DNA of 64,000 nt from Thermoanaerobaculia bacterium (GTDB lineage: Bacteria; Acidobacteriota; Thermoanaerobaculia; Multivoradales; JAIOJS01). Below are positions 12,243-28,985 of the stretch, piece by piece. Location: contig JAUIDB010000005.1 in NCBI GenBank assembly GCA_030429235.1, forward strand, positions 62,001 through 126,000, written 5' to 3'. The notes beneath the pieces are model-generated. The model was given only the letters and a program-made list of their open reading frames with translations, ran no database searches and was not told the DNA's origin. The number at the start of each line of letters is the position of its first letter. The stretch's first letter is position 1. The translations under genes were made by a program, and so were the position numbers.

Positions 12243-12346
12243 GTCGCCTCCCTGGTTTGGGTCTGGGTGGTCACTCGGGAAACCGCCGGCCGGTCGGAAT
12301 CCGAATGAAAGTTGATCGATTGGTTACGGTTCATGGTGTGCTCCAT
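12239..12346 (-). CDS. possible small ORF filling the ftsA-ftsZ gap
   Basis: An open frame starts directly after the ftsA TAG (ATG 12346-12344) and ends in a TGA that overlaps the ftsZ ATG. It would give 35 aa, or 31 aa from a second ATG at 12334 that has GGAG 6 nt upstream. The peptide is polar (N, S, T, R rich) with no membrane segment. Codon use (CAA, CGT, TTT, CAT) is poorer in GC3 than the neighbours, which argues against a conserved protein. It could be a leader that couples ftsZ translation to ftsA, or chance. Confidence 0.2.
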
Positions 12347-13588
12347 CTAGAGCAGATCGGCGAAGAGACTCTTGATCGAGCCCATCACTTGCCGCAGGTT
12401 CCTTCCCTGGCTGCGAGCCCGGTTCGAGAGTCGCTTCTCGGCTTCGACGCCGTGGAGCAGCAGACCGGATGCGGTACACCAGGAGGGAGAGTTGATGACG
12501 TCCACCAGTCCTCCGAGGCCTCTGGGCAGGCCGTAGCGGACACTGGCGTTGAAGATCTGTTCGGCGAGTTCGAGCAGGCCGTCGAGTTGGGCGCCGCCGC
12601 CCGTGAGCACGACGCCGGCGCGCAGGCCTTCGGCCATGCCCATGCGAGCGAGATCCCGCTGGATGACCAGGAAGAGTTCCTCACCTCGGGGCTGGAGGAT
12701 CTCACAGATCTCGCGCTTCGGAACCACGCGCGTGGCACCACCGCCGACGGTGGGGACCGACACGCCCTCCTCCTGTCCGACCAGCGAGCCGAGGCAGCAC
12801 CCCTTCTCGATCTTGATCCGCTCCGCCTCCGCGAAGGGCGTACGGAGGACGGTCGCCAGATCGGAGGTGAAGTGTCCTGCCCCGATGGGAAGCACGGCAC
12901 TGTGCTGCACCTCGCCGTCGGCGAAGAAGGCGTAGCTTGTGGTGCCGGCGCCGATGTCGACGAGGAGGACGCCGAGTTCGCGCTCGTCGTGGCTGAGAAT
13001 CGCTTCCGCCGTGGCCAGCGATTCGAAGACCAGTTCGGTGACCTCGATGCCGGCTCGGTTGACGCAGGTAAGCAGCGTCTTCGAGCGGGTGGCCTGTCCG
13101 GTGACCAGATGGACGCCGACTTCGAGTCGGCTGCCGAGCATCCCTTTCGGATCGGCGATCCCTCCCTGTTCGTCGACGATGAACTCCTGCGGGATGGCGT
13201 GGAGGATCTCGCGTTCGCGTGGGATCGCTGCCGACTGGGCGGCCTCGAGGACCCGCTGGATGTCGGAGAACTCGATCTCACGGTCCTTGCGCGCCACCGA
13301 GACCATGCCGCGGGCGTTGAAGGAGCGGATGTCGGACCCCGCGATGCCGACGTAGGCCGAAGCGACCTCGACTCCCGCCATCACCTCGGCTTCCTCGCAG
13401 GCCGCCTTGAGTGCCTCGACCGTGGTCTCGACGTTGACCACGGTGCCGCGGCGGGTCCCCCGATTGGGGGCTTCGCCCTTGCCGACGATCTCGAGTCGCC
13501 GGCCCTCCTCCCCTCGCTGGGCGATGAGGACACCCACCTTGGACGATCCGATGTCGATGCCTACGATGTACGGTTCCTGCTTGGCCAT
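12347..13588 (-). CDS. ftsA: cell division protein FtsA
   Basis: 413 aa from ATG 13588 (M-A-K-Q-E-P). An actin-fold ATPase that tethers FtsZ to the membrane. Phosphate-binding motifs are visible: VGIDIGSSKVGVLIA near the N-terminus, LLVDIGAGTTSYA in the middle, and VVLTGGGAQLDGL later. The 1C subdomain is present after residue 80. The C-terminal end is a helix rich in basic and hydrophobic residues (SIKSLFADLL), consistent with the membrane-targeting amphipathic helix. The upstream ATG at 13675 lies deep in ftsQ and was rejected. The ftsQ TGA is separated from this ATG by one base. Confidence 0.97.
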   Translation of the reverse strand: MAKQEPYIVGIDIGSSKVGVLIAQRGEEGRRLEIVGKGEAPNRGTRRGTVVNVETTVEALKAACEEAEVMAGVEVASAYVGIAGSDIRSFNARGMVSVARKDREIEFSDIQRVLEAAQSAAIPREREILHAIPQEFIVDEQGGIADPKGMLGSRLEVGVHLVTGQATRSKTLLTCVNRAGIEVTELVFESLATAEAILSHDERELGVLLVDIGAGTTSYAFFADGEVQHSAVLPIGAGHFTSDLATVLRTPFAEAERIKIEKGCCLGSLVGQEEGVSVPTVGGGATRVVPKREICEILQPRGEELFLVIQRDLARMGMAEGLRAGVVLTGGGAQLDGLLELAEQIFNASVRYGLPRGLGGLVDVINSPSWCTASGLLLHGVEAEKRLSNRARSQGRNLRQVMGSIKSLFADLL

Positions 13589-13589
13589 C

Positions 13590-14438
13590 TCAGCCCTCTT
13601 CTGTGGCGACGGGACCTCGAGGCCCCGGTTGGTTAGTCCGTTCCACGGTGGGTTCCGCGGTACGAAGGACGACACGGCGGGGCAGGCGGAGGTCGACGAT
13701 CCCCACCTCTTCCGCTCGGTCTCCGATCTCTTGTAGTGCCCGGTCGAGACGCGACAACGCGCCGTCGAGGGTTCCGGCCCGGACGATGATCTGGTACGGC
13801 GTGCTCCCCAGCGCCATCCGGTAGTCCTCGTCGGAGAGGATCTCGATCTGGCGGACGCTGGCAGCCCACGCGGGCCTCAGGGTTCGCAACTCCTCGAGGA
13901 GAGCGAGGCTTCCGGCCACCGGCACCGGTTCGCCGTCGGGCCAGATCAGATGGGGGAGCAACTGCGCGAGCTCCTCGTCCTCGGTGCTGGCGATGACGGC
14001 GCCCTCACGGTCGAGGTAGTAGCTCTGTTCGGCTCGTTGCCAGACGGCCAGCGGCTCCTTCTCCTCCACCTTGACGACGAGTCCTCGCGGCAGCTCCTTG
14101 GTCACCGCGACGCTGGCGACCCAGGGGTGCTCGGCCAAGGGTCGGGCCACGTCGTCGAGCGACAGGGCGAGGATGTGGCGCCCTTGCACGGTGTCGAGGG
14201 CCGTCGTCGCCCAGCTGGTAGCGACCCGTTCGCCGGCTCGAACCGTGACCTGGTCGACGAGGAAGTAGCCGGAGAGGGCGACCCATCCCACCAGGCCGAC
14301 CGGCACCCCGACCAGCAGGGTGGCCTGCAGGGCGGCCCGGGCCACCATGGCCAGAGTCCGGCTGCGCGGCTGGCGGCGCGGCATCGGATCACGCCGCCGC
14401 AACAGGCGGGGTCCGGACTCGGTGACCGCGGCTCTCAT
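13590..14438 (-). CDS. ftsQ: cell division protein FtsQ
   Basis: 282 aa. A basic cytoplasmic tail, one membrane helix (about 36-60), then a POTRA-type domain starting with FLVDQVTVRAGERV and containing HPWVASVAVTKELPRGLVVKVEEKEPLAVW, followed by the FtsQ beta domain with DREGAVIAS and LPHLIWPDGEPV. FtsQ links FtsB and FtsL to the rest of the divisome at the outer face of the inner membrane. Its ATG overlaps the murC stop (ATGA), so translation is probably coupled. Length is normal for the family. Confidence 0.95.
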   Translation of the reverse strand: MRAAVTESGPRLLRRRDPMPRRQPRSRTLAMVARAALQATLLVGVPVGLVGWVALSGYFLVDQVTVRAGERVATSWATTALDTVQGRHILALSLDDVARPLAEHPWVASVAVTKELPRGLVVKVEEKEPLAVWQRAEQSYYLDREGAVIASTEDEELAQLLPHLIWPDGEPVPVAGSLALLEELRTLRPAWAASVRQIEILSDEDYRMALGSTPYQIIVRAGTLDGALSRLDRALQEIGDRAEEVGIVDLRLPRRVVLRTAEPTVERTNQPGPRGPVATEEG

Positions 14439-15832
14439 GCCGCCTCTCCTGCCAGTTGGTGGCTCAGTCGGTAGATATCACCGGCGCCCAGGGTCAGGAT
14501 CACGTCGCCGGCCTCCAGACGGTCCCCGAGGACGGCCGGTAGGACCGTCCAATCGGGATGGGATTCGACCCGGCGGTGACCCGAGGCGCGGGCTGCGTCG
14601 ACCACCATCTGACCCGAGACCTCGGGATCGAAGGCTTCGCGGGACCCGTAGACATCGACGACATAGGCGCAATCGGCTCCGAGCAAGGCGCGACCGAACT
14701 CGGCCGCCATGTCCCGGGTGCGCGAGTAGAGGTGGGGCTGGAAGACGGCGTGGATCCGAGCTCCGGGGTAGGCCTCGGCGGCAGCCGCGAGGGTGGCCGC
14801 GACCTCGGCGGGATGGTGTGCGTAGTCGTCGACGACGGCGGCGTCACAGAAGGTGCCCAATACCTCGAAGCGGCGGTGAACTCCCCGGAAGGCCGCCAGC
14901 CCCTGGCGAATCTGTTCGAAGTCGAGGCCGAGGGCGCGTGCCACTCCGACCGCTGCCAAAGCGTTCTGCACGTTGTGACGGCCCGGGAGCGGAAGTCGTA
15001 CGGTGCCCAGGACCTCTCCGGAACCGACCCGTACGGAGAAGGAACAGCCGGCGCCTTCGGGGCGCAGATCGATCGCGGCGAGGTCGGCCTGGGGAGACAG
15101 ACCGTAGGTCACGATTCGGCGGTCGGCGAGCCGCGGCAGGATGGTCTGCAGGTTGGCGTCATCCAGGCAAGCGATCACCTGACCGAAGAAGGGGACGCGG
15201 TCGGCGAACTGGACGAAGGCGTCGCAGATGGCTTCGAGGTCTCGATAGGTGTCGAGGTGATCGACGTCGATCGAGGTGATGACCGCGAGGACGGGAGAGA
15301 GTCTGAGGAAGGAGCGGTCGAACTCGTCCGCTTCGGCGACCAGGTAACGGCTGCGCCCCAGTCGGGCGCCGGTGCCAGAAACGCGGAGTCGCCCCCCTAC
15401 GATCACCGTGGGGTCCAGGCCCGCCTCGGTGAGCAGGGTTCCCACCAGGGAGGTGGTGGTCGTCTTGCCGTGGGTGCCGGCGACGGCGATGCCGTACTTG
15501 AGACGCATCAGTTCGGCGAGCATCTCGGCGCGCCGGATGACGGTGATGCCCTGGGCACGGGCGGCAGCGATCTCCGGATTGTCATCGGGCACGGCTGACG
15601 ACTTGACCACCAGATCGGCGCCCTCGATCTGGTCCGGGCGATGGCCGATCGCGATGTCGACACCGAGCCCTTCCAGCCGGCGGGTGTTGTCGCTGGCGGC
15701 TTGGTCGCTGCCGCTGACCTCGAGGTCGTAGTCCAGGAGCACTTCGGCAATGCCACTCATGCCGCTGCCCCCGATGCCCACGAAGTGCACGCGGTCGAGG
15801 CCAGCCAGTTCGCGGAAGGAGGTGCCGGTCAT
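14435..15832 (-). CDS. murC: UDP-N-acetylmuramate--L-alanine ligase
   Basis: 465 aa. It adds L-alanine to UDP-MurNAc using ATP in the cytoplasm. The N-terminal Rossmann motif HFVGIGGSGMSGIAEVL, the P-loop GTHGKTTTTSL and the later conserved DDYAHHPAEVAATL and QPHLYSRTRD blocks identify MurC among Mur ligases. The ATG overlaps the murG stop (ATGA) and its own TGA overlaps the ftsQ ATG. The much longer frame upstream (to 16552) is only murG read out of frame. Confidence 0.98.
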   Translation of the reverse strand: MTGTSFRELAGLDRVHFVGIGGSGMSGIAEVLLDYDLEVSGSDQAASDNTRRLEGLGVDIAIGHRPDQIEGADLVVKSSAVPDDNPEIAAARAQGITVIRRAEMLAELMRLKYGIAVAGTHGKTTTTSLVGTLLTEAGLDPTVIVGGRLRVSGTGARLGRSRYLVAEADEFDRSFLRLSPVLAVITSIDVDHLDTYRDLEAICDAFVQFADRVPFFGQVIACLDDANLQTILPRLADRRIVTYGLSPQADLAAIDLRPEGAGCSFSVRVGSGEVLGTVRLPLPGRHNVQNALAAVGVARALGLDFEQIRQGLAAFRGVHRRFEVLGTFCDAAVVDDYAHHPAEVAATLAAAAEAYPGARIHAVFQPHLYSRTRDMAAEFGRALLGADCAYVVDVYGSREAFDPEVSGQMVVDAARASGHRRVESHPDWTVLPAVLGDRLEAGDVILTLGAGDIYRLSHQLAGEAA

Positions 15833-16932
15833 GCCGCGACCTCCACCAGGTGGCGGGTGATGTCGGCCGCCGCTCGAGGCCGGGCCAGGCGGCGGGCGGC
15901 GGCGGCCATCTCCGAGAGTTGGCCGCGCTGCTCGAACAGCTTCTCCACGGTGACGGCGAGAGCACCGGCCGTCGACTCGGAGGCGTCGAAGACCCGCGCC
16001 GCTCCGGCTCGGGACATCGCTTCGGCGTTGGCGCGCTGGTGTCCTTCCGCGAGGGTCAGAGGAACGAGGATGGAGCCGCGGCCCGCGGCACAGAGTTCGG
16101 CCAGGGTGATGGCACCGGCGCGCGAGACGACGAGGTGCGCTTCTGCCATCTCGCTGGCGACATCGGCGACGAACGGCACGACCGTGACCTGGTGCGACGG
16201 ACCCACCTGCTCCTGGTACGCGTGGCGCGTGGCATCGGCGTGCCGCTCCCCGGCCTGGTGCAGCACCCGCAGTCCACCGGGAGGCTCGGGGACCAACGCC
16301 AGGGCCTCGGGCAGGAGCCGATTGAGTTGAGCTGATCCCTGGCTGCCTCCGAGGACGAGCAACCGCAAGGGCCCGCTGGGCAGGGCCGCCGGGGTCTCGA
16401 AGAAGGCCCGGCGAACCGGCACTCCGGTGTTCCAGCGGGCACCGCGCAGTTGGACCTCGGGCCAGGCTACGCAGGCGCCCCGAGCGAGCCGCGCCAACAG
16501 TCGATTGGCGGCGCCGGGATGGGCGTTCGGTTCGAGAAGTACGAGCGGACAACCGGCCAGCCGGGCGCCGATGCCGGGGGCCACCGAAACGTAGCCGCCG
16601 GTGGCCAGGACGACGCTGGGCTCGAGGCGACGGATGAGCCGGCGGGCCCGAAGGCTGGAACCGACCAGGGTGGTGAGGGCCTGCAGCTTTCCGGTCAGCC
16701 CGCGTCCCACGACCGGGCGAGCGGGCAGGCCGGTGAAGGGCACGTCGCGGCCGCTCACGAGGCGAGCCTCCATGCCGTGGGCCGAGCCGACGAAGCTGAC
16801 GCGACCGCCCCGCCGACGGACCTCGTCTCCGACCGCCAGAGCGGGGAACACGTGTCCACCGCTGCCGCCGCCGGCCAGGAGCAGGTGGAAGCCATCAGGC
16901 AGTGGTGAAGCGTCGACATCGAGATCAGGCAT
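15829..16932 (-). CDS. murG: UDP-GlcNAc:lipid I N-acetylglucosaminyltransferase
   Basis: 367 aa, GT28 family. It converts lipid I to lipid II at the inner face of the membrane. The N-terminal glycine-rich loop GGGSGGHVFPALAVGDEVR and the second loop LVLGGSQGSAQLN are both present, as is the C-terminal donor-site segment with SRAGAITLAELCAAGRGSILVPL. A short acidic extension precedes the usual N-terminus. It overlaps ftsW by 8 nt upstream and murC by 4 nt downstream. Confidence 0.97.
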   Translation of the reverse strand: MPDLDVDASPLPDGFHLLLAGGGSGGHVFPALAVGDEVRRRGGRVSFVGSAHGMEARLVSGRDVPFTGLPARPVVGRGLTGKLQALTTLVGSSLRARRLIRRLEPSVVLATGGYVSVAPGIGARLAGCPLVLLEPNAHPGAANRLLARLARGACVAWPEVQLRGARWNTGVPVRRAFFETPAALPSGPLRLLVLGGSQGSAQLNRLLPEALALVPEPPGGLRVLHQAGERHADATRHAYQEQVGPSHQVTVVPFVADVASEMAEAHLVVSRAGAITLAELCAAGRGSILVPLTLAEGHQRANAEAMSRAGAARVFDASESTAGALAVTVEKLFEQRGQLSEMAAAARRLARPRAAADITRHLVEVAA

Positions 16933-18010
16933 GTTGAGAGACGTTGAGGATGACGCCGCTGGCCGCCAGAGCGGTGACCAGGGCGGAACCGCCGTAGGTC
17001 ATGAAGGGCATCGGGATACCGGTAGAGGGGAGCAGGGCCAGAGCCACCGAGCAGTGCAGGAAGGCCTGTAGGACCAGGACGCCGGTGAAGCCCCAGGCGA
17101 GATAGCGGCCGAGGGGATCGGGAGCGTGGAGGCCGGCCCGCAGTCCGCGCCAGGCGAGCGCGGCGAACAGTCCGAGCACCGCCAGGGCGCCGACGAAACC
17201 GAGCTCCTCGGCCAGGATCGAGAAGATGTAGTCGGTGTGAGGGTAGGGAAGGAAGTAGAGCTTCTGCCCGCCGTGCCCCAGTCCCTGACCCAAGAGCCCC
17301 CCGGAACCGACGGCGATCAAGGACTGCATCGCCTGGAATCCGCTGCCCAGGGGGTCCTTCTCCGGCTCGAGGAAGGAGAAGAGTCGCGCCCGGCGGTACG
17401 GCTCGGCCCAGATGGCGAGGGCGATCAGGGGGAGCCCGACCAGCGCGCCGCCGGCCAGGAAGCGCCACGACAAGCCCGCCAGGAAGAGCAGCAGTCCACA
17501 GGCGGCCACCAGCACCAGTGCAGCGGACAGGTGGGGTTCGAGCACGACTAGGCCAGCCATCAGCAGGGTGACCCCGACGGTCGGGATCAGGACCTCCGGA
17601 CGGTTCACCTTCGCTTCTTTGCGGTCGAGCTGGTAGGCGATGTAGGGCACCAAAGCGAGCTTGGCGAGTTCCGATGGCTGAATGGATACGCCACCCACGA
17701 AGAGCCAGCGGTTGGTCTGGTTGAGGGCGGGACCGAAGAGCACGACCACCAGGAGCAGGAGGACTCCGCCGAGCAGGGAGTAGACGACCAGGGGGCGCTT
17801 GAGCAGCGTGTAGTCGACGTGCATCGCGGTCGCCATCAACACCAGGCCGGCGCACGCGGCCACGGTCTGCTTGACCAGGAAGGGGTTCCAGTCGGCGCCG
17901 CTCTCGCGAGCGATCGCCGCACTCGCCGAATACACCATCACCAGTCCGATGCCGACGAGCAGCAACACGACGGCGAACAGCCCGCGGTCGAAGGCCAGTT
18001 TTTTAGCCAC
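16925..18010 (-). CDS. ftsW: FtsW, SEDS-family peptidoglycan glycosyltransferase
   Basis: 361 aa from GTG 18010 (V-A-K-K-L-A-F-D), with GGGAGG 6 nt upstream and an 8-nt overlap with murD. About ten membrane segments. Family motifs include GLVMVYSASAAIA near the start, VGGVSIQPSELAKLALVPYIAY in the middle, and STGIPMPFMTYGGSALVTAL near the C-terminus. FtsW polymerises lipid II at the septum together with the transpeptidase FtsI, encoded in the same cluster. The longer frame reaching 18235 would fuse unrelated murD-antiphase sequence and is not used. Confidence 0.96.
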   Translation of the reverse strand: MAKKLAFDRGLFAVVLLLVGIGLVMVYSASAAIARESGADWNPFLVKQTVAACAGLVLMATAMHVDYTLLKRPLVVYSLLGGVLLLLVVVLFGPALNQTNRWLFVGGVSIQPSELAKLALVPYIAYQLDRKEAKVNRPEVLIPTVGVTLLMAGLVVLEPHLSAALVLVAACGLLLFLAGLSWRFLAGGALVGLPLIALAIWAEPYRRARLFSFLEPEKDPLGSGFQAMQSLIAVGSGGLLGQGLGHGGQKLYFLPYPHTDYIFSILAEELGFVGALAVLGLFAALAWRGLRAGLHAPDPLGRYLAWGFTGVLVLQAFLHCSVALALLPSTGIPMPFMTYGGSALVTALAASGVILNVSQHA

Positions 18011-19379
18011 GGCGCCCTCCCTGCAGGGCCCGCACCAGGGCCTGGAAGTGGTCGCCGCGGGCACCGAAGTTCGCGTACTGGTCAAAGCTCGCACAGGCTG
18101 GCGACAGCAGAACCGTCTCGCCCGTCGTGGCTCGGCGCCGGGCACTCTGGACCGCGCGGTCGAGGTCCCCGCAGGTCTCGTAGTCGACGCCCCGCGAATC
18201 GAGTTGGGAGGCGAAGAGTTCGCTGGCCTCGCCAATCAGGTAGCAGCGCGCCGCGCGAGCGGCCACCACCGGCCAGAGGTCATCGAAACCCTCCCCCTTG
18301 GCTCGTCCGCCGAGGATCAGATGCACCGTTCCGGCCTCGAATCCGTCCAGAGCCCGCAGGGTGGCTCCGGGGTTCGTACCCTTGGAGTCGTCGTAGTAGG
18401 CGACGCCGTCGATCGTGGCGATCCACTGGGTTCGATGGGGGAGCCCCGCGAAACCACTGAGGGCCTGGCGAAAGGTCTCGCGACGACCCCCGACCGCGGT
18501 GGCCAGGAGGCTGGCGGCCATGGCGTTCTCGAGGTTGTGGACGCCGGGCAACCTCAGATCCTCCAGGCGAAACAGTTCGCGTTCGGGCTCGCCGGGGGCC
18601 CTCTCCACGACGCGGTCTCCGTCGACGAAGCAGCCGTCTTCGACCGCGGTCTGCCGCGAGAAGGACCGCCGTCGAGCCGTAGTGGCTACGGTCCGCACCC
18701 AGGGGTCGTCGGCATTGACCACCGCTGTGTCGGTGGCGAGCTGGGTTGCCAGCAGGCGGGCCTTGGCGTCCCCGTAGGCCTGGAGACTCTCGTAACGGTC
18801 CAGGTGGTCGGCCGAGAGATTCAGGAGTCCGGCTGCCTGGGCTCGAAAGTCGCGGATGGTCTCGAGTTGGAAGCTGGAGAGTTCGACCACGAAGACGCGA
18901 TCGGCCGGTCCGTCGACGCAGGCGGAGAGGGGACGGCCGATGTTGCCACAGACCTCGGTAGCGAGCCCGGAGGCTTCGAGCAGGGCACCGGTGAGCGCGG
19001 TGGTGGTGCTCTTGCCGTTGCTGCCGGTGATGCCGACCACGGGCCCTTCGACGAAGGCAGCGGCCAGCTCGACCTCGGCGATCACCGGGATTCCGGCTCG
19101 TCGAGCGGCGAGCACCAGGGGGCGATCCAGCGGCACCCCCGGCGACAGGACGATGCCGTCGACCGCTGGCAAGGCGTCCGGTTCACCACCCACCTGCAGC
19201 TCGACCTGCGGATCGTCCGCCAGCTCGGCGAGACCGAGTTGGTCGAGCGGGCGACGGTCCACGCCGACCACGCCGATGCCGTGCCGTCGGAGGAGCCGGC
19301 TGGCGGCGACGCCCGACAGTCCGAGCCCATAGACCAGGGCTCGTTGCCAGCGGTGGAGGGAGAACGAGGTCTTCTTCAT
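18003..19379 (-). CDS. murD: UDP-N-acetylmuramoyl-L-alanine--D-glutamate ligase
   Basis: 458 aa. It adds D-glutamate to UDP-MurNAc-L-Ala. After an N-terminal dinucleotide-fold ([19 protein letters not shown]) comes the P-loop [16 protein letters not shown], the [10 protein letters not shown] motif, [15 protein letters not shown], and the C-terminal domain with [15 protein letters not shown] and [20 protein letters not shown], all diagnostic of MurD. The start overlaps the mraY stop (ATGA). The end overlaps the ftsW GTG. Confidence 0.97.
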
Positions 19380-20458
19380 CGCAGCTTGAGGGAGGAGATC
19401 GCCACCAGGGCGAACAGCAGTGAGAGGATCCAGAAGCGGACGATGATCTTCGGCTCGGCCCAGCCACCGAGTTCGAAGTGGTGGTGGAGGGGGGCCATGC
19501 GGAAGATCCGCTTGCGCCGCATCTTGTAGGAGCCGACCTGCAGGATGACGGAGAGAGCTTCGAGGACGAAGAGCCCACCCACCACGGCCAGGAGCAGCTC
19601 CTGGCGACAGAGCACGGCCACGGTTGCGATGGCGCCACCCAAGGCCAGCGAGCCGACGTCTCCCATGATCACTTCGGCTGGGTGGCAGTTGAACCAGAGG
19701 AACCCGAGGCTGGCTCCGACCAGGGCGCCGCAGAAGATGGTCACCTCGCCGACTCCGGGAACGTAGGCCACCTGCAGGTACGAGGCGGCGATCGAGTTGC
19801 CGGCGATGTAGGTGAAGAGGGCGTAGGTGGCGGCCGCGATCAGGGTGGCTCCGATCGCCAGGCCATCGAGGCCGTCGGTGAGGTTGACCGCGTTCGAGGA
19901 CCCGACCAGCAGGAACATCACGAAGGGGACGTACAACCAGCCCAGGGGGAGCACCAGCTGCTTGAAGAAGGGAAAGTTGAGTAGCTCGGGACTGAAGTCG
20001 AGGGGCAGTCGGAGCAGTGCGACCGCCGCCAGCGCCGCGACCAGGGACTGGCCGAGGAACTTGTGGCGGGCCGACAAACCGAGGTTCCGCCCCCGCCGGA
20101 CCTTGAGGTAGTCGTCGGCAAAGCCGATCAGTCCGAACCCGACGGTCACGGCGAGCGCGATCCAGACGAAGGCGTTGTCGAGTCGGGCCCAGAGGAGGGT
20201 GGGTACCACCACGACGAAGAGGATGAGGATGCCTCCCATGGTCGGGGTACCAGCCTTCACGAGGTGGGTCTTCGGCCCGACCTCTCGGATGTTCTGTCCC
20301 ACCGACAGGCGGCGCAGCAGACGGACGAACCCCGGCCCCAGGAGGAGGCTCAGCACCAGGGCCGTCACCACGGCGCCCGCCGCCCGGAAGGTGATGTAGC
20401 GGAACACGTTGAAGAGAGCGAATTGCTCGGCGAGGGGGAAGAGGAGGTGGTAGAGCAT
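19376..20458 (-). CDS. mraY: phospho-N-acetylmuramoyl-pentapeptide transferase
   Basis: 360 aa, ten or so membrane helices. It transfers phospho-MurNAc-pentapeptide to undecaprenyl phosphate to form lipid I. Catalytic motifs include [16 protein letters not shown] with its Asp pair, the [13 protein letters not shown] block and the C-terminal [12 protein letters not shown] histidine motif. Its ATG overlaps the murF TGA by one base (TGATG), and its stop overlaps the murD ATG. Confidence 0.98.
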
Positions 20459-21837
20459 CAGTCTGCCCCCTCGCTCAGGGCTTCTACCGCCCTCTCGAGG
20501 CCGATGCCGCGAGAGCCCTTGATCAGGACCAGGTCTCCCGCTCGAGCCTCCTCGCGCAACCAGGTCGCGGCTTCGGCCGCCGTGGCGAACCAGAGCGCGC
20601 TGCTACCCGCGGCCTGGGCTCCACTGACGAGGTGGCGGGCGAGATCGCCGACTCCGAGGATGGGCGAGAAGCCGAGGTCGGCCGCCGCTCGCCCCTCGGC
20701 GCGATGGTAGTCGGCGGCCTCAGGCCCCAGCTCGAGCATGTCGCCGAGCACGGCGATGCGCCGCTGAGCGGGCAGGCGGGCGGCGGACTCCAAGGAGCGT
20801 CGTAGCGCCACCGGGTTCGAGTTGTAGCTATCGTCGATGACTCGGACGTTGGAGGAGAGAGTGCGGACCACACCCCGGCCAGCGACGGGTCCGAGAAGGG
20901 TGGCCTGGGCGGCGATCTCGTCGAGGCTGACCCCCAGTCGATGGGCGCAGGACGCGGCGGCCAGGAAGTTCTCGATGTTGTAGCGTCCGTGCAGTGGGAG
21001 TTCGATCTCACGATCGCCGTCGGGAGTGACGAGACAAAAACGCGAGCCAACCCCCGTGGCCAGGTCACTGATCTCCTTCGCCCGATAGGCCACCGCGGCC
21101 TCGATACCGTAGTAGACGACCGGCCCCGGAGCCCGTTCCGCGATCGCCACCACGCGGGAATCGTCGGCGTTGGCGACCACCAGGCCGTCGGGGGCGAGTC
21201 CCGCCAGGATTTCGGCTTTGGCCCGGGCGACGTCCTCGATGGTTCCCAGGGTCTCGAGATGCGCGGGCCGGATGTTGGTGAAGACCGCCACGTCGGGCCG
21301 AGCCAGCAGACTGGTTTCTCTGAGCTCACCAGGCAGGGAGAGCCCCATCTCGGCGACCATCCACTCGGTGTCTTCGGGGATGCCGAGCAGCGCGATAGGG
21401 AAACCAAGAGTGTTGTTCAGATTGCCGGGACTACGCGCTACCCGGTACCGCGAACCGAGTAGGGTGGCGAGCAGCTCCTTGGTCGTGGTCTTGCCGTTGG
21501 AGCCGGTGATTCCGACCAGGCGCTCGGGTACCGCACGACGGATCTCACGGGTCAGAGCGTGGAGTCCTCGGTAGGGATCGTCGACCCGGACGATCGCTCC
21601 CTGGCTCTGCTCGACGTCGATGTCGTGGGCCACGATAGCCGCGGCCGCACCCCGAGCCAGGGCTCGGGGTGCGAACTCGTGGCCATCCCTCCGGCTCCCG
21701 GGAAGGGCGAAGAACAGTTCGCCGCCGGAAACCCGCCGCGAATCGAGGCAGGCTCCGCACCAGCGGTCTCCCGGGTTTCCGAGCACCACCTTTCCAGCCA
21801 TGGCGGTGGCAGCCTCAGCTACCGTTCGACACACCAT
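20458..21837 (-). CDS. murF: UDP-N-acetylmuramoyl-tripeptide--D-alanyl-D-alanine ligase
   Basis: 459 aa. It adds D-Ala-D-Ala to the tripeptide precursor. The N-terminal domain follows the MurE/MurF pattern ([17 protein letters not shown]), then P-loop [35 protein letters not shown] and [16 protein letters not shown], typical of MurF. Start ATG 21837 overlaps murE by 23 nt and preserves the usual N-terminal helix ([12 protein letters not shown]); ATG 21801 would clip it. The D-Ala-D-Ala ligase that makes its substrate (ddl) is not in this window. Confidence 0.97.
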
Positions 21838-23281
21838 GGTGCTCCTCCAGTGCTCGCAGAATCTCTTGGCGATCCGAGAACGGGCGGACCACGCCGCCCG
21901 CCTCCTGGCCCGTTTCGTGCCCCTTACCGGCCACCACCAGAACCCAGCTTTCGTCGACCACGTCGAGGGCCCGACGGATGGCGTCCCGTCGATCAGGGAG
22001 TAGGCGGTAGCTGCGGTTGCCGCTCGCCACCAGCCCCTCTTCCACCGCGGCCAGGATGGCGATCGGATCCTCGCTACGCGGGTTGTCCGAGGTGACGATC
22101 GGAAGGTCGGCGAGCTCTCCCGCGACGCGACCCATCACCGGACGCTTGCTCCGGTCCTTGTCGCCGCCGCAGCCGAAGACGACGGCCACCCGGCGCTGGC
22201 TGAGCGAACGCACCGCCGACAGGGTGGCGGCGAGGGCCTCGGGAGTGTGGGCGAAGTCGACGAAGATCGGGCACCGTGAGCCCTCGCCGACCCGTTCCAT
22301 GCGGCCAGGGACGACCGGAGTGGCCGCGATTCCCTGACGAATGTCTCGGTGGTCGAGCCCGAGCGCTTCGCCGACTCCGACCACGGTGCAGAGGTTCTCG
22401 AGGTTGTAGGCGCCAAGCAGCTGCGATTCGATCTCCAGGTCGCCGCGTGGGGTGGTGATCCGAGCCCAAGTCCCTTCCAGGGTGAGTTTCGACTCGGCGA
22501 TCTGCACGTCGCCCCGGGGGCCGACGGTGATCGCGTCGGGGAGGGACTTGGCCAGCCGTCGTCCCCACGGGTCACCAACGTGGATGACGGCTCGTCCCTC
22601 GTCGGTGAGTTGGTCGAAGAGTCGGGACTTGGTTTGGAAGTAGTCCTCGAGGTCGCGGTGGAAGTCCAGGTGATCCTGCGTGAGATTGGTGAAGACCGCG
22701 ACGCGAAAGGCCAGTCCCTCGACTCGGTGGCGAGCCAGGGCGTGCGAGGAGACCTCCATGGCGATCGCCTGGGCTCCGGCGTCGCGCCAGGTCCGCATCA
22801 ATCGGAACAGATCGGTCGACTCCGGAGTGGTGCGAGTCGCCGGTTCTTCCAGGTTTCCGAAGCGGCTTGCCAGTGTGCCGAGGCGGCCAGCCGGGCGTCC
22901 CGCCGCGGTCAGGACCTGTTCGAGCAGCCACACGACGGTCGACTTTCCGTTGGTGCCGGTCACGCCCACCAAATCGAGTTCACGATCGGGATGATCGTAG
23001 ATGCGGGCGGCCAGGGTGGCCATGAGCCGCCTGGCTTCGGGAGCCACCAACCAGGGGAGGGAGGTTTCCGAGTCTGGCGGGCCTTCCGCCAGCACCGCGA
23101 TCGCCCCCCGCTCGATGACGTCCGGCACGAACCGTGTCGCATCGAAGCGGTCGCCGACCAGTGCCACGAAGAGACTGCCCGGCTCGACCCGACGGGAGTC
23201 GTGGGTGATCTCGCGCACTTCGACCCGAGCCTCGCAGTCGCCGGAGATCGGTAGCCCGGCCACCAAATCGTGCAACTTCAT
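21815..23281 (-). CDS. murE: UDP-MurNAc-L-Ala-D-Glu--meso-diaminopimelate ligase
   Basis: 488 aa from ATG 23281. It contains THDSRRVEPGSLFVAL, P-loop GVTGTNGKSTVVWLLEQ, AMEVSSHAL, FTNLTQDHLDFH and VDFAHTPEAL. The DNPR motif in SDNPRSEDP is the known determinant for meso-diaminopimelate rather than lysine, so the peptidoglycan is probably DAP-type. It overlaps ftsI by 4 nt (ATGA) and murF by 23 nt. The long upstream extension of this frame is out-of-frame ftsI and is not part of the gene. Confidence 0.97.
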   Translation of the reverse strand: MKLHDLVAGLPISGDCEARVEVREITHDSRRVEPGSLFVALVGDRFDATRFVPDVIERGAIAVLAEGPPDSETSLPWLVAPEARRLMATLAARIYDHPDRELDLVGVTGTNGKSTVVWLLEQVLTAAGRPAGRLGTLASRFGNLEEPATRTTPESTDLFRLMRTWRDAGAQAIAMEVSSHALARHRVEGLAFRVAVFTNLTQDHLDFHRDLEDYFQTKSRLFDQLTDEGRAVIHVGDPWGRRLAKSLPDAITVGPRGDVQIAESKLTLEGTWARITTPRGDLEIESQLLGAYNLENLCTVVGVGEALGLDHRDIRQGIAATPVVPGRMERVGEGSRCPIFVDFAHTPEALAATLSAVRSLSQRRVAVVFGCGGDKDRSKRPVMGRVAGELADLPIVTSDNPRSEDPIAILAAVEEGLVASGNRSYRLLPDRRDAIRRALDVVDESWVLVVAGKGHETGQEAGGVVRPFSDRQEILRALEEHHGVSNGS

Positions 23282-25110
23282 CGGCGACCCTCCAGGACTC
23301 GCCAGGCCGGGTGGCTCTCTTCGGGAGAGGGGTTCTCGAACTCCGGAATGCCGTCGCGAGCCTCCTCGGCCAGTGGAACCGGTAGCTCTTGTGAGGCGGC
23401 GAGTTGCAGAGACGGCATCTGCGGGGCCAAAGGGTCGGGCCAGTCGGGGGGGTTGAACTGGGGAGCGATTCCCCAGTAGGGCAGGACCTGGCGAGCGATG
23501 GCAGCGAACGTCGGGGCCGCAACCTGGCCGCCATGGTAGAGGGGCCGAGGCTCGTCGAGGACGATGATGCCGACCAGACGAGGGTTCTCCAGGGGCACGA
23601 ATCCCATGAAGCTGGCCACGAACCGAGTCTGCGAGTAGCGCCCGCCGATCACCTTCTGGGCGGTCCCCGTCTTGCCTCCGGCTGGGTAGCCGGGAATCTG
23701 GGCCGACCGGGCCGTACCGTCGGCGACCACCCCCGAGAGCATCTCCTGGAGCTGAGTGGCAACACGCGGCGTAAGCAGCCGCTCGCCGCGGGGTGGAGTC
23801 AGCGCCCGGCGTCCCTCGCGATCGCTGACCGCGGACACGACGTGAGGTCGTACCTGTTCGCCGCCGTTGGCCACCACCGCCAGGGAGCGGGCCATCTGCA
23901 GCGGCGTGACCGAGATCTCCTGCCCGAACGAGATGTAGGCCTTGCTGAGAGCAGCCCACCGGTCGAGGGGCCGAACGATTCCCGGGTTCTCGCCCGGCAG
24001 GTCGACACCGGTACGACTCCCGAAGCCAAACTGGTCGATGGCCCGGTGGAGTCGCTCCTCGCCGAGCAGCAGGCCCAGTTTGATGACGCCGACGTTGCTG
24101 GAGCGCGCCATGACCTCGCGTAGCGAGAGGTCACCGAAGGGGTGGTGGTCGCGGATCCGCTGTCCCGCCAGGGTGATACCCCCCATCTCGCAGTACAGGA
24201 CGTCGTCGGGAGTGAGCAGTTCGTGTTCCAGCACGGCGGCGGCGGTGACCATCTTGAAGGTCGATCCGGGCTCGTAGGCGTGTTCGATGGCCGAGGTGCC
24301 CCAGTTCTCCCGTGGCGAGTCGGCGAAGTGGTTGGGATCGAAGGTCGGCCAGCCGGCCAGGGCCACGACGCCGCCGGTCTGAGGGTCGAGAAAGGCTGCG
24401 ACACCACGGGAGGCCTGGTACTTCTCGACGGCGGTGGCGAGCTCACGTTCGACGATGTGCTGTACGGTGGCGTCGAGGGTGAGGTGTAGGTCGGCTCCAG
24501 GCTCCGCTTCGACCACGGCGAGACGCGGCGAGAGCAGCGTCCGCCGGTGGGCATCGCGCATCACGGTGCGGCTGCCTGGGACGCCGGCGACGACGGAGTC
24601 GTACTGTGCCTCCAGGCCGGCGAGGCCCTTGTGATCGGTCCCGACGAAGCCGAGCACCGAGGCCGCCAGGGGACCCATCGGGTAGTACCGCTTGCTCTCT
24701 TTGACGAAGTGGATCCCCGGCAGCTCGAGCGCTGCGACCTCGGCGGCCTGGGGCGGGTCGAGCTTACGGGCCACGAACACGAAGTCGAGGTCCTGTTGCA
24801 AGCGCTGGTAGAGGCGGTCGGCGTCGAGGTCGAGGACCGCGGCCAGTTCGTCGGCGGTTCGCCGCGGATCCTCGAGTTGTCGCGGGTCGGCATAAGCCGA
24901 TTCGACCTCTACCGAGACGGCGAGGACCCGGCCGCGGGCGTCGTAGATGGTGCCCCGTGGCGGTTCGAGGTCCAGGACCCGGCGCTGTTGGTTGGCGGCG
25001 AGGTTCTGGTAGTGGTCGTGTTGCCGAATCTGGAGATGATGAAGGCGGGCCGAGAGACCCGCCACCCAGAAGGTCAATCCGACCATCAAGAGGAGGGCTC
25101 GCCGTTTCAT
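23278..25110 (-). CDS. ftsI: FtsI/PBP3 septal peptidoglycan transpeptidase
   Basis: 610 aa class B penicillin-binding protein. One N-terminal membrane helix (about 6-22) with the following LRHHLQI-type segment, a PBP dimerisation domain containing LEPPRGTIYDARGRVLA, then the transpeptidase domain with the three active-site motifs: S-T-F-K in EPGSTFKMVTAAA, S-S-N in MARSSNVGVIKLG, and K-T-G in AGGKTGTAQK. It crosslinks septal peptidoglycan together with FtsW. No PASTA repeats follow; the C-terminus is Pro/Glu-rich. The ATG overlaps the ftsL stop. Confidence 0.97.
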   Translation of the reverse strand: MKRRALLLMVGLTFWVAGLSARLHHLQIRQHDHYQNLAANQQRRVLDLEPPRGTIYDARGRVLAVSVEVESAYADPRQLEDPRRTADELAAVLDLDADRLYQRLQQDLDFVFVARKLDPPQAAEVAALELPGIHFVKESKRYYPMGPLAASVLGFVGTDHKGLAGLEAQYDSVVAGVPGSRTVMRDAHRRTLLSPRLAVVEAEPGADLHLTLDATVQHIVERELATAVEKYQASRGVAAFLDPQTGGVVALAGWPTFDPNHFADSPRENWGTSAIEHAYEPGSTFKMVTAAAVLEHELLTPDDVLYCEMGGITLAGQRIRDHHPFGDLSLREVMARSSNVGVIKLGLLLGEERLHRAIDQFGFGSRTGVDLPGENPGIVRPLDRWAALSKAYISFGQEISVTPLQMARSLAVVANGGEQVRPHVVSAVSDREGRRALTPPRGERLLTPRVATQLQEMLSGVVADGTARSAQIPGYPAGGKTGTAQKVIGGRYSQTRFVASFMGFVPLENPRLVGIIVLDEPRPLYHGGQVAAPTFAAIARQVLPYWGIAPQFNPPDWPDPLAPQMPSLQLAASQELPVPLAEEARDGIPEFENPSPEESHPAWRVLEGRR

Positions 25111-25463
25111 GGCAGACCTCCTCTGGATACCCCGACGAAGATCATCTGGTCGAGTTCGGGGGCAGACATTCCGAGGTGCTCGACCGCCCAGGCCTCCAGG
25201 CGAGGCGGACTGGCGAGATAGGCCGCTTCCAGTCGTAGGTGACGCTCTCGTCGCTCGAGCTCGACGATCTTCTGCTGCAGCTCGCCCACCGCGTAGCCGT
25301 TCTCGATCAAGCCGAGATGCAGCCAGGTGTAGCCGAGCAGCGCCGACCCCACGACCAGAATCGCACCGGCCACCCGGGCGAGGTCGACGAGCAGGCTGCG
25401 ATCGCGCTCGCGAACCAGGTAGCGGTTGTGAACCGGACGGCTCTTGGCGTAGGAGGTCCGCAC
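25107..25463 (-). CDS. ftsL: FtsL-like divisome protein
   Basis: 118 aa. A basic cytoplasmic N-terminus, a single membrane helix (about 27-50) and a short coiled coil (ELQQKIVELERRERHLRLEAAYL) followed by a SPPRLEAWAVEHLGMSAPE segment, the layout shared by FtsL and FtsB/DivIC. Its position between rsmH and ftsI is the canonical ftsL locus, which decides the name over FtsB. It overlaps ftsI by 4 nt and starts 4 nt after the rsmH stop. Confidence 0.88.
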   Translation of the reverse strand: MRTSYAKSRPVHNRYLVRERDRSLLVDLARVAGAILVVGSALLGYTWLHLGLIENGYAVGELQQKIVELERRERHLRLEAAYLASPPRLEAWAVEHLGMSAPELDQMIFVGVSRGGLP

Positions 25464-25467
25464 CCGT

Positions 25468-26388
25468 TTACAGTCTCCGGGCGGCGCGCAGCCGAGCCGA
25501 ACGGGCGCGGGGGTTGCTCTCGATCTCCTCGGAATCAGCAGAGATAGCTCGACGGGTGAGGAGCTCGAGCAGTTGGGTCTCCTCGCGGGGCCGACCGGTC
25601 ACCGGGTCCTTCTCTCCCTGGGACCAGTCGCGAAGGCGGTGCTTGACGATTCTGTCCTCGAGGCTGTGGTACGAGATGATGACCAGGCGACCCTCCTGGT
25701 CGAGGAGGCGGACTGCCTGGTCCAGAAGCTCCTCGAGTTCGGTGAGCTCGCGGTTCACCTCGAGTCGCAGGGCCTGGAAGACACGGGTGGCGGAGTCGAT
25801 TCGGCCTTCCCGGGTGCGTCCCTTGGCCCGGTGTACGGCCTCGCGGAGGTCGGAGGTGGTCTCTAGCGGTTGCTGATCGCGGCGCCGCACGAGCTCTCGA
25901 GCGACCCGGCGGGCCATGCGTTCCTCACCGTAGTCCTTGAACACGCGCCTCAGCTCCTCTTCCGGATACTCGTTGACGATGTCGGCCGCCGTGACCTCTC
26001 CCCGACCCATGCGCATGTCGAGCGGACCGTCGTGCTGAAAGCTGAATCCCCGTTCCCCCTGATCGAGCTGCATCGAGGAGACGCCGAGATCGGCCAGGAT
26101 GCCGCCGTCGATCCGCTCGCCCCGCAGGACCCTCTCCAGCTCCGAGAAGCGGGCGTTTTCGAAGCGTGTGCGGGACTCGAACGGAGCCAGACGGCGTGCA
26201 GCGCGGTGCAGGGCATCGGGATCCCGATCGATTCCCAGAAGTCGTGCCTCGGGAGCGCGCCGGAGCAGGGCTTCCGCGTGGCCGCCGAGTCCCAGCGTGC
26301 AGTCGACGAACAGGCCGCCCCGCTCGGGGGCGAGCAGGCCGAGCGTTGCTTCGAGGAGGACCGGTTCGTGCCGGGGGATCGAGGACAT
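25468..26388 (-). CDS. rsmH: 16S rRNA (cytosine1402-N4)-methyltransferase
   Basis: 306 aa from ATG 26388. It methylates C1402 in the ribosomal P site. The family hallmarks are HEPVLLEA near the start, the SAM motif FVDCTLGLGGHAEALL, GILADLGVSSMQLDQGERGFSF, LDMRMG, and the C-terminal SYHSLEDRIVKHRLRD with the usual NPRARSARLRAARR tail. It follows mraZ by 13 nt, the standard gene order. The longer upstream frame is out-of-frame mraZ. Confidence 0.97.
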   Translation of the reverse strand: MSSIPRHEPVLLEATLGLLAPERGGLFVDCTLGLGGHAEALLRRAPEARLLGIDRDPDALHRAARRLAPFESRTRFENARFSELERVLRGERIDGGILADLGVSSMQLDQGERGFSFQHDGPLDMRMGRGEVTAADIVNEYPEEELRRVFKDYGEERMARRVARELVRRRDQQPLETTSDLREAVHRAKGRTREGRIDSATRVFQALRLEVNRELTELEELLDQAVRLLDQEGRLVIISYHSLEDRIVKHRLRDWSQGEKDPVTGRPREETQLLELLTRRAISADSEEIESNPRARSARLRAARRL

Positions 26389-26401: not shown

Positions 26402-26842
26402 TCATACTCCCCGTTCGCTGAGGGCCATGAAGTCCTCTTCAGTGAAGGGCTGATCGTCGAGACGCTTGGCCCAACGGTCGCGGTTCCACACCACGAGGTG
26501 GTCGAGTCGACCCGACACCACGACCTCGCCTTGAGTCTGGGCACTCTCGCGCAAGATCTGCGGGATGACGGTCCTTCCCTGGGCGTCGAGGCGAACCTGC
26601 TGTCCGAAGTAGTTGACTCGCTCCAGGTATCGTTCTCGAACTCGGTCGGTCGAGGGCATCGAGAGTAGACGTTCCTCGAGCTGCTCCCAGACCGGGAGGG
26701 GATAGACCAGGGCGCTGTCGCCAACTACCGACGTAATGAAGAGCTCGTTGCCGTACCGCTCCTCTAGCTGCCGCCGAAAATCCGTCGGCACCTTGAGACG
26801 CCCCTTGTCGTCTATTTTTGCTGGCGCACTCCCTCGGAACAT
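26402..26842 (-). CDS. mraZ: transcriptional regulator MraZ
   Basis: 146 aa from ATG 26842 (M-F-R-G). Two SpoVT/AbrB-type beta domains are visible: one with KIDDKGRLKVPTDFR and one with RLDAQGRTVIPQILR. MraZ binds direct repeats in its own promoter and controls the dcw cluster as an oligomeric ring. It is the first gene of the run of 14. The candidate binding array lies 56-100 nt upstream of the ATG and overlaps the promoter, so autoregulation is expected. The in-frame ATG at 26902 lies inside that array and was rejected. Confidence 0.96.
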   Translation of the reverse strand: MFRGSAPAKIDDKGRLKVPTDFRRQLEERYGNELFITSVVGDSALVYPLPVWEQLEERLLSMPSTDRVRERYLERVNYFGQQVRLDAQGRTVIPQILRESAQTQGEVVVSGRLDHLVVWNRDRWAKRLDDQPFTEEDFMALSERGV

Positions 26843-26882
26843 TTCGTATCGCCTACCTTGCAGATCGTCAGACCGATGGGGA

Positions 26883-26942
26883 AGTCTAACAACCTGCTCC
26901 ACTCTTGTCCACTATCTTCCGAAAATGTCCACTTTTCTCCAC
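26883..26942 (-). promoter_or_regulatory. mraZ promoter with a five-unit MraZ-box array
   Basis: On the minus strand five consecutive 10-bp units run from 26942 to 26893: GTGGAGAAAA, GTGGACATTT, TCGGAAGATA (degenerate), GTGGACAAGA, GTGGAGCAGG. A -35 TGGACA (26911-26906), 17-nt spacer and -10 TAGACT (26888-26883) form a good promoter whose -35 lies inside the fourth unit. The 10-bp phase and GTGG core match known MraZ operators, so bound MraZ should occlude the -35. The leader to the mraZ ATG is about 34 nt. Confidence 0.8.
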
Positions 26943-27046
26943 CTGGGAGAGAAAAGGGACCCCTGTCGCCCCCCGAGCCCCACCGGGAGCAGTGCCTGGG
27001 GAGCGTCATCGGTGGCGCCGGAGCGATCGACGCCGGTCGGCGAGAT

Positions 27047-28147
27047 CTACTCGGTCAGATCAGGGGACGAAGCGTCGAGGTGGGTCTCGGCTTCTTCGCT
27101 CGCGCCGAGGCCGCGGAAGCCAGCGGCATCGGGGGGAATCTGCATCTCGATGAACGCGTTGGCTTCGACCTCGCGGAGGTAGTCCTTGTAGGCCTCGGCC
27201 ATCCGCGTGTCGCGCTCGCGTGCCAGAAGCAGGTCGCGAACTTCGTCGAAGGGCCGAACCGTCTCTTCCCGTACCTCGAGGACTCGCAGGATGTGGCTGC
27301 CACCCCGTGCCTCGACTGGCGCGCTGAACGCTCCGACTTCGAGATCCCAGACCGCGCGGTCCAGTTCGGGGGCGAGGTGCCCTGGTTCGACCCAGCCGAG
27401 GTCGATGACGCCGCTGGTGACCCCGCTCTCGGCCAGTACATCGACGGCGTCGGCGAAGTCAGCGCCGCCGTCGATGGCCGACATCAGGTCGGCGATGACT
27501 CCCCGCCGTGCTTCGAGGTCGGGGGTCGGCTCTTCGAGGACCACGACCTCTTCGACGAGACGAGCCGCTGGGATGGTCAGTTCCGCTTCGTTCTCGCGGT
27601 AGATCTTGCGGAGTTCGTCGTCTTCGATCTCGATCTTGGAGCGGATCTCGCGGCCCACGACCTGTTGGACCAGCAGAGTGTTCTCCATCTTGGTGCGCAG
27701 TTCGTCCAGGGTGAGACCGGAGGCGATCAACGCCTGCTCCATCTCGGACTCGGTCTGGATCCCCATCCGCTCCTTGGCCTGCGCTACAGCGTTGTCGATC
27801 TCCGCCTGGGTGGCGAAGATCCCGAGTTGCTTGGCTCGAGAGCGCAGCAACAGTTCCTCGTAGATCTCCCGGTAGACCTGCTGGCCCGAGTCGGCCATCA
27901 TCTGTTGCCGCTGTTCCTCGGGCATCTCCGCCATGCGAATCGCTTGCCGACGGTCGGTGAGTTGGTTCTGGTAGTCGTGGGCGGTCGCGATCTGATCGTT
28001 GATGCGCAGCACGACTCCGTTGACGACCTCGGCACTGGCCGGCAGGGGCATGAGGTGGGCGACGGTGGCGGCAAGGGCGGCCACCGCCACCCCACGAGAA
28101 AGTCGCTCGGCGGTTTGGGGGAGGAAGCGGGGAAGTGTCAGGCTCAT
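27047..28147 (-). CDS. surA: SurA-like periplasmic peptidyl-prolyl isomerase/chaperone
   Basis: 366 aa. A signal peptide (about 1-39, cut after LPASA) leads to the SurA N-terminal chaperone domain starting EVVNGVVLRINDQIATAHDYQNQL, followed by one parvulin (PpiC) domain around 195-300 (RLVEEVVVLEE, GADFADAVDVLAESGV, GVIDLGWVEPGHLAPELDRAVWDLEVGAFSAPVEARGGSHILRVLEV). It would assist outer-membrane protein folding. It is downstream of a PpiC-like lipoprotein (28-nt gap) and upstream of mraZ (204 nt). Confidence 0.88.
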   Translation of the reverse strand: MSLTLPRFLPQTAERLSRGVAVAALAATVAHLMPLPASAEVVNGVVLRINDQIATAHDYQNQLTDRRQAIRMAEMPEEQRQQMMADSGQQVYREIYEELLLRSRAKQLGIFATQAEIDNAVAQAKERMGIQTESEMEQALIASGLTLDELRTKMENTLLVQQVVGREIRSKIEIEDDELRKIYRENEAELTIPAARLVEEVVVLEEPTPDLEARRGVIADLMSAIDGGADFADAVDVLAESGVTSGVIDLGWVEPGHLAPELDRAVWDLEVGAFSAPVEARGGSHILRVLEVREETVRPFDEVRDLLLARERDTRMAEAYKDYLREVEANAFIEMQIPPDAAGFRGLGASEEAETHLDASSPDLTE

Positions 28148-28175
28148 GGAGTCCTCGGGGCGGGAGTGGGAGGAA

Positions 28176-28985
28176 CTAGGACGGGTCGGCGTAGGAACCC
28201 GTGTAGTCGAAGGGCAGGTTCTGCTGCCACACCCGCGGATTGTAGCGATCTCGGGCCTCAGCGGCCAGTTGGGAACGCTTCTCGGCCGCCGCCGCGGTAC
28301 GAAGTTGCCGCCGAGTCAGTTCCTGGGCATCGAACTCCGAGAGCACGCGGGCTGGCTGTCGCTCGACCAGCCAAAGCACGGTGTGGCCCTTCTGGTCGAC
28401 GAGCACGGTGCCTCGACGGTTGAGGTCCAGGTCCGCCACCGCTTCGGCGAAGGCTGTCGGCAGACGGTGCGAGGGAATCTCGGTGACTTCGTGCGTCGGA
28501 TGCTCGGCCAGCCAGGCCTCGGTGCCGTCGGCATTAAGGGCCCCCAGGGCTGCCTCGGCCGCCGTTGCCTGGTCGTACGTCAGGTGGAGGAGGCGTACCC
28601 GTTCCTCCTCCCGTGGCAGTCCGTGGTGCTCGAGCCAGCGGCCGACCTGCTCTTCGGAGACGTCGACACGGGCCAACTCGGCCAGCAGATCGAGCCGCTG
28701 CTCGGCCAGAGAGACCTCCCTTCGGACCCATTCCATCTCCTGACCGAGAAGGAGGAGCAGACGCTCTTCGAGGTACTGATCGAGGAGCGACGACAGGACC
28801 TCGGAGTCGAGCCCGGCCGCACCTCCGCCCGCGACTCGCGCCAGGTGTTCCTTCCACTCGCCGTAGAGCACTGGCTCGTCGCCCAGGGTAGCGATCTCTT
28901 CCGGCGGCCGTTCGCGCTGCGGTTGGCAAGCCAGGAGACCCCACACGAGCGGGCTGCAGAGGAGCAGAGTCCGACCGACGCGCAC
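28176..28985 (-). CDS. PpiC/SurA-type peptidyl-prolyl isomerase lipoprotein
   Basis: 269 aa, GTG start overlapping the mfd TAG by one base. The N-terminus is a lipoprotein signal: basic residues, a hydrophobic stretch and the lipobox LLAC with C20 as the acylation site. The body is helical and charged like SurA/PrsA N-domains; around 120-215 it shows parvulin-like features (LLHLTYDQATAAEAALGAL, FAEAVADLDLNRRGTVLVDQKGHTVLWLVERQP). The second isomerase-like gene in a row supports a periplasmic folding unit. Catalytic parvulin residues are not clearly conserved, so it may act mainly as a chaperone. Confidence 0.7.
   Translation of the reverse strand: MRVGRTLLLCSPLVWGLLACQPQRERPPEEIATLGDEPVLYGEWKEHLARVAGGGAAGLDSEVLSSLLDQYLEERLLLLLGQEMEWVRREVSLAEQRLDLLAELARVDVSEEQVGRWLEHHGLPREEERVRLLHLTYDQATAAEAALGALNADGTEAWLAEHPTHEVTEIPSHRLPTAFAEAVADLDLNRRGTVLVDQKGHTVLWLVERQPARVLSEFDAQELTRRQLRTAAAAEKRSQLAAEARDRYNPRVWQQNLPFDYTGSYADPS

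Follow-up and report, generated by a model that had tools for sequence, protein, structure and literature searches.

A 10-bp repeat array enclosing the -35 element before mraZ, a probable MraZ operator in Thermoanaerobaculia

The mraZ gene of this Thermoanaerobaculia bacterium heads a dcw cluster and is preceded by tandem repeats that run over its promoter, raising the question of which protein reads these repeats and what its binding would do to the genes that follow. The window examined here, meaning the whole stretch of DNA that was analysed, is 64,000 nucleotides of contig JAUIDB010000005.1 (assembly GCA_030429235.1). In the list below, slots are numbered from the box that holds the -35 element (slot 0), and slot counts were made with one genome per genus, in 27 genera of the window's order.

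26933 to 26942, minus strand: box 1, GTGGAGAAAA, at slot -3; RTGG in 5 of 27 genera of the order
26923 to 26932, minus strand: box 2, GTGGACATTT, at slot -2; RTGG in 12 of 27 genera of the order
26913 to 26922, minus strand: unit 3, TCGGAAGATA, degenerate, at slot -1; GTGG in 25 of 27 genera of the order
26903 to 26912, minus strand: box 4, GTGGACAAGA, at slot 0, with the -35 TGGACA inside it (26911-26906)
26893 to 26902, minus strand: box 5, GTGGAGCAGG, at slot +1, in the promoter spacer; RTGG in 26 of 27 genera of the order
26888 to 26883, minus strand: -10 element TAGACT, with TG in front of it and a 17-bp spacer from TGGACA
26402 to 26842, minus strand: mraZ (146 aa), which opens the cluster and encodes the presumed binder; Pfam MraZ match at 9.8e-24, in two stretches
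10821 to 26385, minus strand: rsmH, ftsL, ftsI, murE, murF, mraY, murD, ftsW, murG, murC, ftsQ, ftsA and ftsZ, from Pfam matches

The five 10-bp units are contiguous from 26942 to 26893, and a GTGGA core is present in four of the five, unit 3 (TCGGA) being degenerate. Inspection of the locus therefore confirmed the sequence-only reading of this DNA, which had described five gapless units, one of them degenerate, with TGGACA as a -35 element in the fourth; the interval under study, 26883-26942, takes in the -10 element as well (TTGTTAGACT, 26892-26883). When both strands of 26700-27150 (451 bp) were scanned with a promoter consensus, TGGACA/TAGACT was the sole sigma-70-like site, and shuffles in the same scan gave a mean of 0.0 (sd 0.2). 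The mraZ ATG is at 26842. Because 26700-27150 gave no Rfam match and no minus-strand terminator (that is, none between the surA-like gene and mraZ), and 26943-27046 folded no better than its own shuffles (z 0.43), a reading as an RNA leader or terminator was dropped. The region directly upstream of mraZ, after mfd, holds a gene for a surA-like peptidyl-prolyl isomerase and an ORF without a Pfam match (27047-28985, minus strand). Positions 26868-26892 (minus strand), from the array end through the -10 and the likely start site, are identical at 24 of 25 letters between the two genomes of the window's genus, far above the identity of the upstream flank.

The array stands out from its surroundings and from shuffled sequence. 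Twenty-three of 25 letters match five in-phase GTGGA cores; among 5000 dinucleotide shuffles of the 300-bp upstream region the highest score was 18, and the other 300-bp tiles of the window, on both strands, reached at most 16, excepting two overlapping tiles that scored 23. With up to three mismatches allowed, the five-slot array occurs once in the 4.85-Mb genome, and no second copy, as a further MraZ target, was found. Three consecutive RTGGR boxes at the array's phase were found nowhere in the genome, the array itself included, which fails this search because unit 3 interrupts the run; single-mismatch three-box matches occur at two other places.

The presumed binder has the features expected of its name. 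The DxxGR motifs of MraZ have a role in DNA contact, and both are present in the protein encoded here, with D11, G14, R15, D86, G89 and R90 invariant across 31 MraZ proteins. The predicted structure (pLDDT 95.9) resembles known MraZ structures, with Z scores of 19.5 to 1n0e and 18.4 to 9sz7, and by its MraZ domains, its two DxxGR motifs and the MraZ fold of the model, the protein fits the MraZ family, PF02381. Thirteen co-directional genes follow it and make up, with mraZ, a 14-gene dcw cluster, in which the genes overlap or almost touch, save for 104 bp ahead of ftsZ; the ftsL match is under the Pfam cut-off (20.6 vs 22.9 bits), and the individual Mur ligases were assigned by their position in the cluster. 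A Ser/Thr protein kinase gene (8039-10027, minus strand) lies downstream of ftsZ, on the same strand as the cluster.

MraZ sites described in other bacteria provide a standard against which the array can be set. In the available parts of the published accounts, the Mollicutes site is given as (AAAGTGKN3)3 (PMC5282649) and the Burkholderia site as four 7-nt repeats with 3-nt spacers (PMC7761207); in both E. coli and Burkholderia the site is located downstream of the -10, and in Burkholderia it overlaps the start site (PMC7761207). Within the same limits, loss of mraZ in M. genitalium was reported to raise the RNA of mraW, MG_223 and ftsZ by 2.1 to 3.0 log2 units (PMC8475190). PDB entry 9sz7 is titled as MraZ in complex with a 4-box promoter. 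The array in the window shares with the operator of Burkholderia cenocepacia and E. coli in-phase 10-bp repeats with a GTG core before mraZ and the dcw cluster, but it lies over the -35 and the spacer, whereas theirs is placed after the -10 in the available part of that account (PMC7761207). With the Mollicutes operator (M. gallisepticum, M. genitalium) it shares direct repeats at a 10-bp period, as far as the available part of PMC5282649 describes them, and it differs in its GTGGA cores, its five slots with one broken, and the 14-gene cluster of a walled cell. Switches of this kind are already known, and what sets this one apart from the Burkholderia and E. coli accounts is its layout. Titles and abstract openings, a search that covered few subscription papers, yielded no report of MraZ boxes in Acidobacteriota or of a -35 embedded in an MraZ box, and a search of PMC5089854 for MraZ-site terms turned up no passage.

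Absence of the repeats from near relatives had been named at the outset as grounds for rejecting the reading, and the array was in fact found there, throughout the class. A mraZ gene was found in 143 of 148 class genomes and up to 300 bp upstream was taken for all 143; three loci with less than 100 bp upstream were left out, and 140 were counted. At least three RTGG at exact 10-bp phase precede mraZ in 138 of these 140, compared with 0.28 expected from shuffles, and the two misses (L083 and L106) each reach two in-phase boxes. No comparable excess was seen before mraZ in class genomes at periods of 7-9 or 11-15 bp. Within the window's order, TRGACA followed at 17 or 18 bp by TANNNT was present in 67 of 68 genomes (0.02 in shuffles), the -35 lies within a box in 67 of the 68, with L101 as the exception, and RTGG occupies slot 0 in 22 of the 27 genera. 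Judged by these counts, the candidate operator of the order usually comprises a core of three boxes, to which upstream boxes may be added. The comparison supports the earlier proposal of an MraZ operator overlapping the -35 before mraZ and the 14-gene cluster.

The window's genus departs from this pattern at one position. Slot -1 is broken in two genera of the order, this one and g6; in the window's genus it reads TCGG here and TGGG in G001, and slots -2 and -3 carry boxes. When the two genomes of this genus are compared, 22 of 25 core positions agree, as against 12 of 25 in the spacers and 18 of 50 in the 50 bp upstream, a pattern such as selection on the cores would leave. One prediction of the sequence-only reading, that five units should bring about strong autorepression, was not supported, since four units are intact, the common core of the order has three boxes, and the break falls in the unit directly preceding the -35 box, where 25 of 27 genera have GTGG. 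The strength of repression in this organism is not predictable from the number of units.

If the boxes belong to MraZ, their fate in genomes that lack the gene is informative. In the phylum sample, a mraZ match was absent in 20 of 199 genomes, and 15 of the 20, all but G188, G192, G200, G221 and G322, were searched for RsmH. RsmH was matched in 14 of the 15, with upstream sequence present for 13. Among these 13 loci, drawn from mraZ-less genomes that represent few independent losses, nine of them belonging to one genus, three in-phase boxes within 400 bp upstream were found in none (maximum two), and an MraZ profile run on the same upstream regions found nothing (best E 0.11). Of 40 sampled phylum genomes that lie outside the class and carry mraZ, at least three boxes were counted in 24 (0.09 expected), two in 10 and one in 6, and some of these 16 misses show, by eye, similar repeats that the RTGG criterion does not count. 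Family f36 has three boxes in 4 of 4 sampled genomes with mraZ. The loss of mraZ in f46 is uninformative, because the two sampled f46 relatives that carry mraZ reach only two in-phase boxes. The absence of the array from the mraZ-less genomes examined ties the boxes to MraZ.

Several other observations concern these losses. In genus g101 of f36 (L211, L213, L215-L221), mraZ was not found in any of the nine sampled genomes, which are 97-99% complete; genus-wide loss of mraZ, with other f36 genera retaining it, is probable. At L209, L210, L212 (g131) and L214 (G156), which likewise come from genomes without a found mraZ, rsmH still seems, by eye, to be preceded by a -35 of TTGAC type and a -10 of TAC type, and boxes are absent. 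The class members without mraZ are G016, G027, G083, G097 and G147, with an RsmH match in three of the five; two of these matches are cut at contig ends. Upstream of the RsmH match in G147 (42% identity) there was neither MraZ nor, by eye, an array, and G147 was left out of the counts because its locus may not be the dcw rsmH.

On this evidence we consider the array, with a probability of roughly 0.9, to be an MraZ operator that would cover the promoter so that MraZ turns down its own operon, and we infer that MraZ binds here, that it represses, and that all 14 genes are transcribed from this promoter. MraZ might instead use the boxes as an activator or mild tuner, with slots -3 and -2 as the working part, an arrangement suggested by the extension of the array upstream of the -35 and by the two intact boxes that stand above the -35 since unit 3 is broken. 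We regard this as unlikely, since the slots that are kept are those on the -35 and spacer (slots 0 and +1, in 22 and 26 of 27 genera), whereas many genera do without boxes at slots -2 and -3 (present in 12 and 5 of 27), and since repression is the effect reported for M. genitalium in the available part of PMC8475190. A different regulator in control of the dcw promoter could also bind the repeats, and the accessible portion of PMC5282649 does describe a Mollicutes protein, HsdC, that binds related repeats with a different spacing. This we find more improbable still, given that the array goes together with mraZ and was not seen ahead of rsmH in the mraZ-less genomes examined, and that its form and phase match known MraZ sites, as those are set out in the available parts of PMC5282649 and PMC7761207.

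The remaining explanations, that the repeats arose by chance or that they are coding sequence of a mraZ extended at its N-terminus from the GTG of unit 5, carry negligible weight. The longest ORF in the mraZ frame does start within unit 5, at 26902; however, unit 5 lies 60 bp from the ATG in the window and 62 bp from it in the second genome of the genus, which would put the extension out of frame there. Chance is excluded by conservation across the class (138 of 140 vs 0.28) and by the shuffle and tile scores.

An MraZ operator of this form suggests how control might work. A ring of MraZ would bind the GTGGA cores, which would lie on one face of the DNA helix because of their 10-bp period. With slots 0 and +1 occupied, RNA polymerase would be denied the -35 and spacer of the one promoter detected ahead of mraZ, and exclusion of polymerase would be the simplest mechanism. 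This negative feedback would hold down the synthesis of MraZ itself together with that of the dcw genes transcribed in the same direction. Transcripts started further upstream could run past the operator, as the search for a minus-strand terminator between the surA-like gene and mraZ found none. In the window's genus, where the box next to the -35 box has decayed, the two boxes further upstream probably compensate; the protein would then bind four intact boxes with a gap of one box among them.

The boxes do not always lie on the -35. In f13, f14 and f17, TTGACN, a gap of 16-18 bp and NANNNT are followed by boxes 3-5 bp past the -10 in 47 of 47 genomes. This strict post-minus-10 pattern was seen in 0 of 68 genomes of the window's order, in 1 of 18 of f10, in 0 of 2 of f11 and f12, and in 0 of 5 of f15 and f16. 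A looser scorer, to which we give less weight in that it examines only the vicinity of the array and favours GTGGACA as the -35, placed the boxes after the -10 in f15 and f16 (5 of 5) and on the -35 in f10-f12 (18 of 20). Loci L046-L050, which are outside the class or unplaced, showed the post-minus-10 layout in 5 of 5. The arrays of f13, f14, f17 and L046-L050 are like that of the window in having 10-bp GTGG-type boxes in the same gene context; they differ in that the first box stands 3-5 bp past the -10 and their TTGACN -35 is outside the array, whereas the -35 of the window is inside a box. A 76-taxon tree of MraZ and RsmH gave no polarity for the two layouts: its outgroup was non-monophyletic and the f13-f17 clade had a support of 0.187.

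We propose, at about an even chance of being right, that a single class has two operator positions with the boxes and their phase kept, the boxes following the -10 in one and one box serving as the -35 (T[G/A]GACA) in the other, and that in the window's genus, with the box adjacent to the -35 decayed, two upstream boxes stand in and the MraZ ring grips four boxes across the gap. If this is true, these genomes would offer a ready-made natural series in which to ask how a ring of MraZ counts and spaces its boxes, and also whether a change of operator position moves the blocked step from polymerase binding to polymerase escape. On this large comparative set, the known range of the MraZ operator would grow to include the class Thermoanaerobaculia and many of the other Acidobacteriota sampled; one regulator would be seen with two clean layouts of promoter and operator, and the natural variants could serve to dissect control of the cell-division operon by the MraZ ring.
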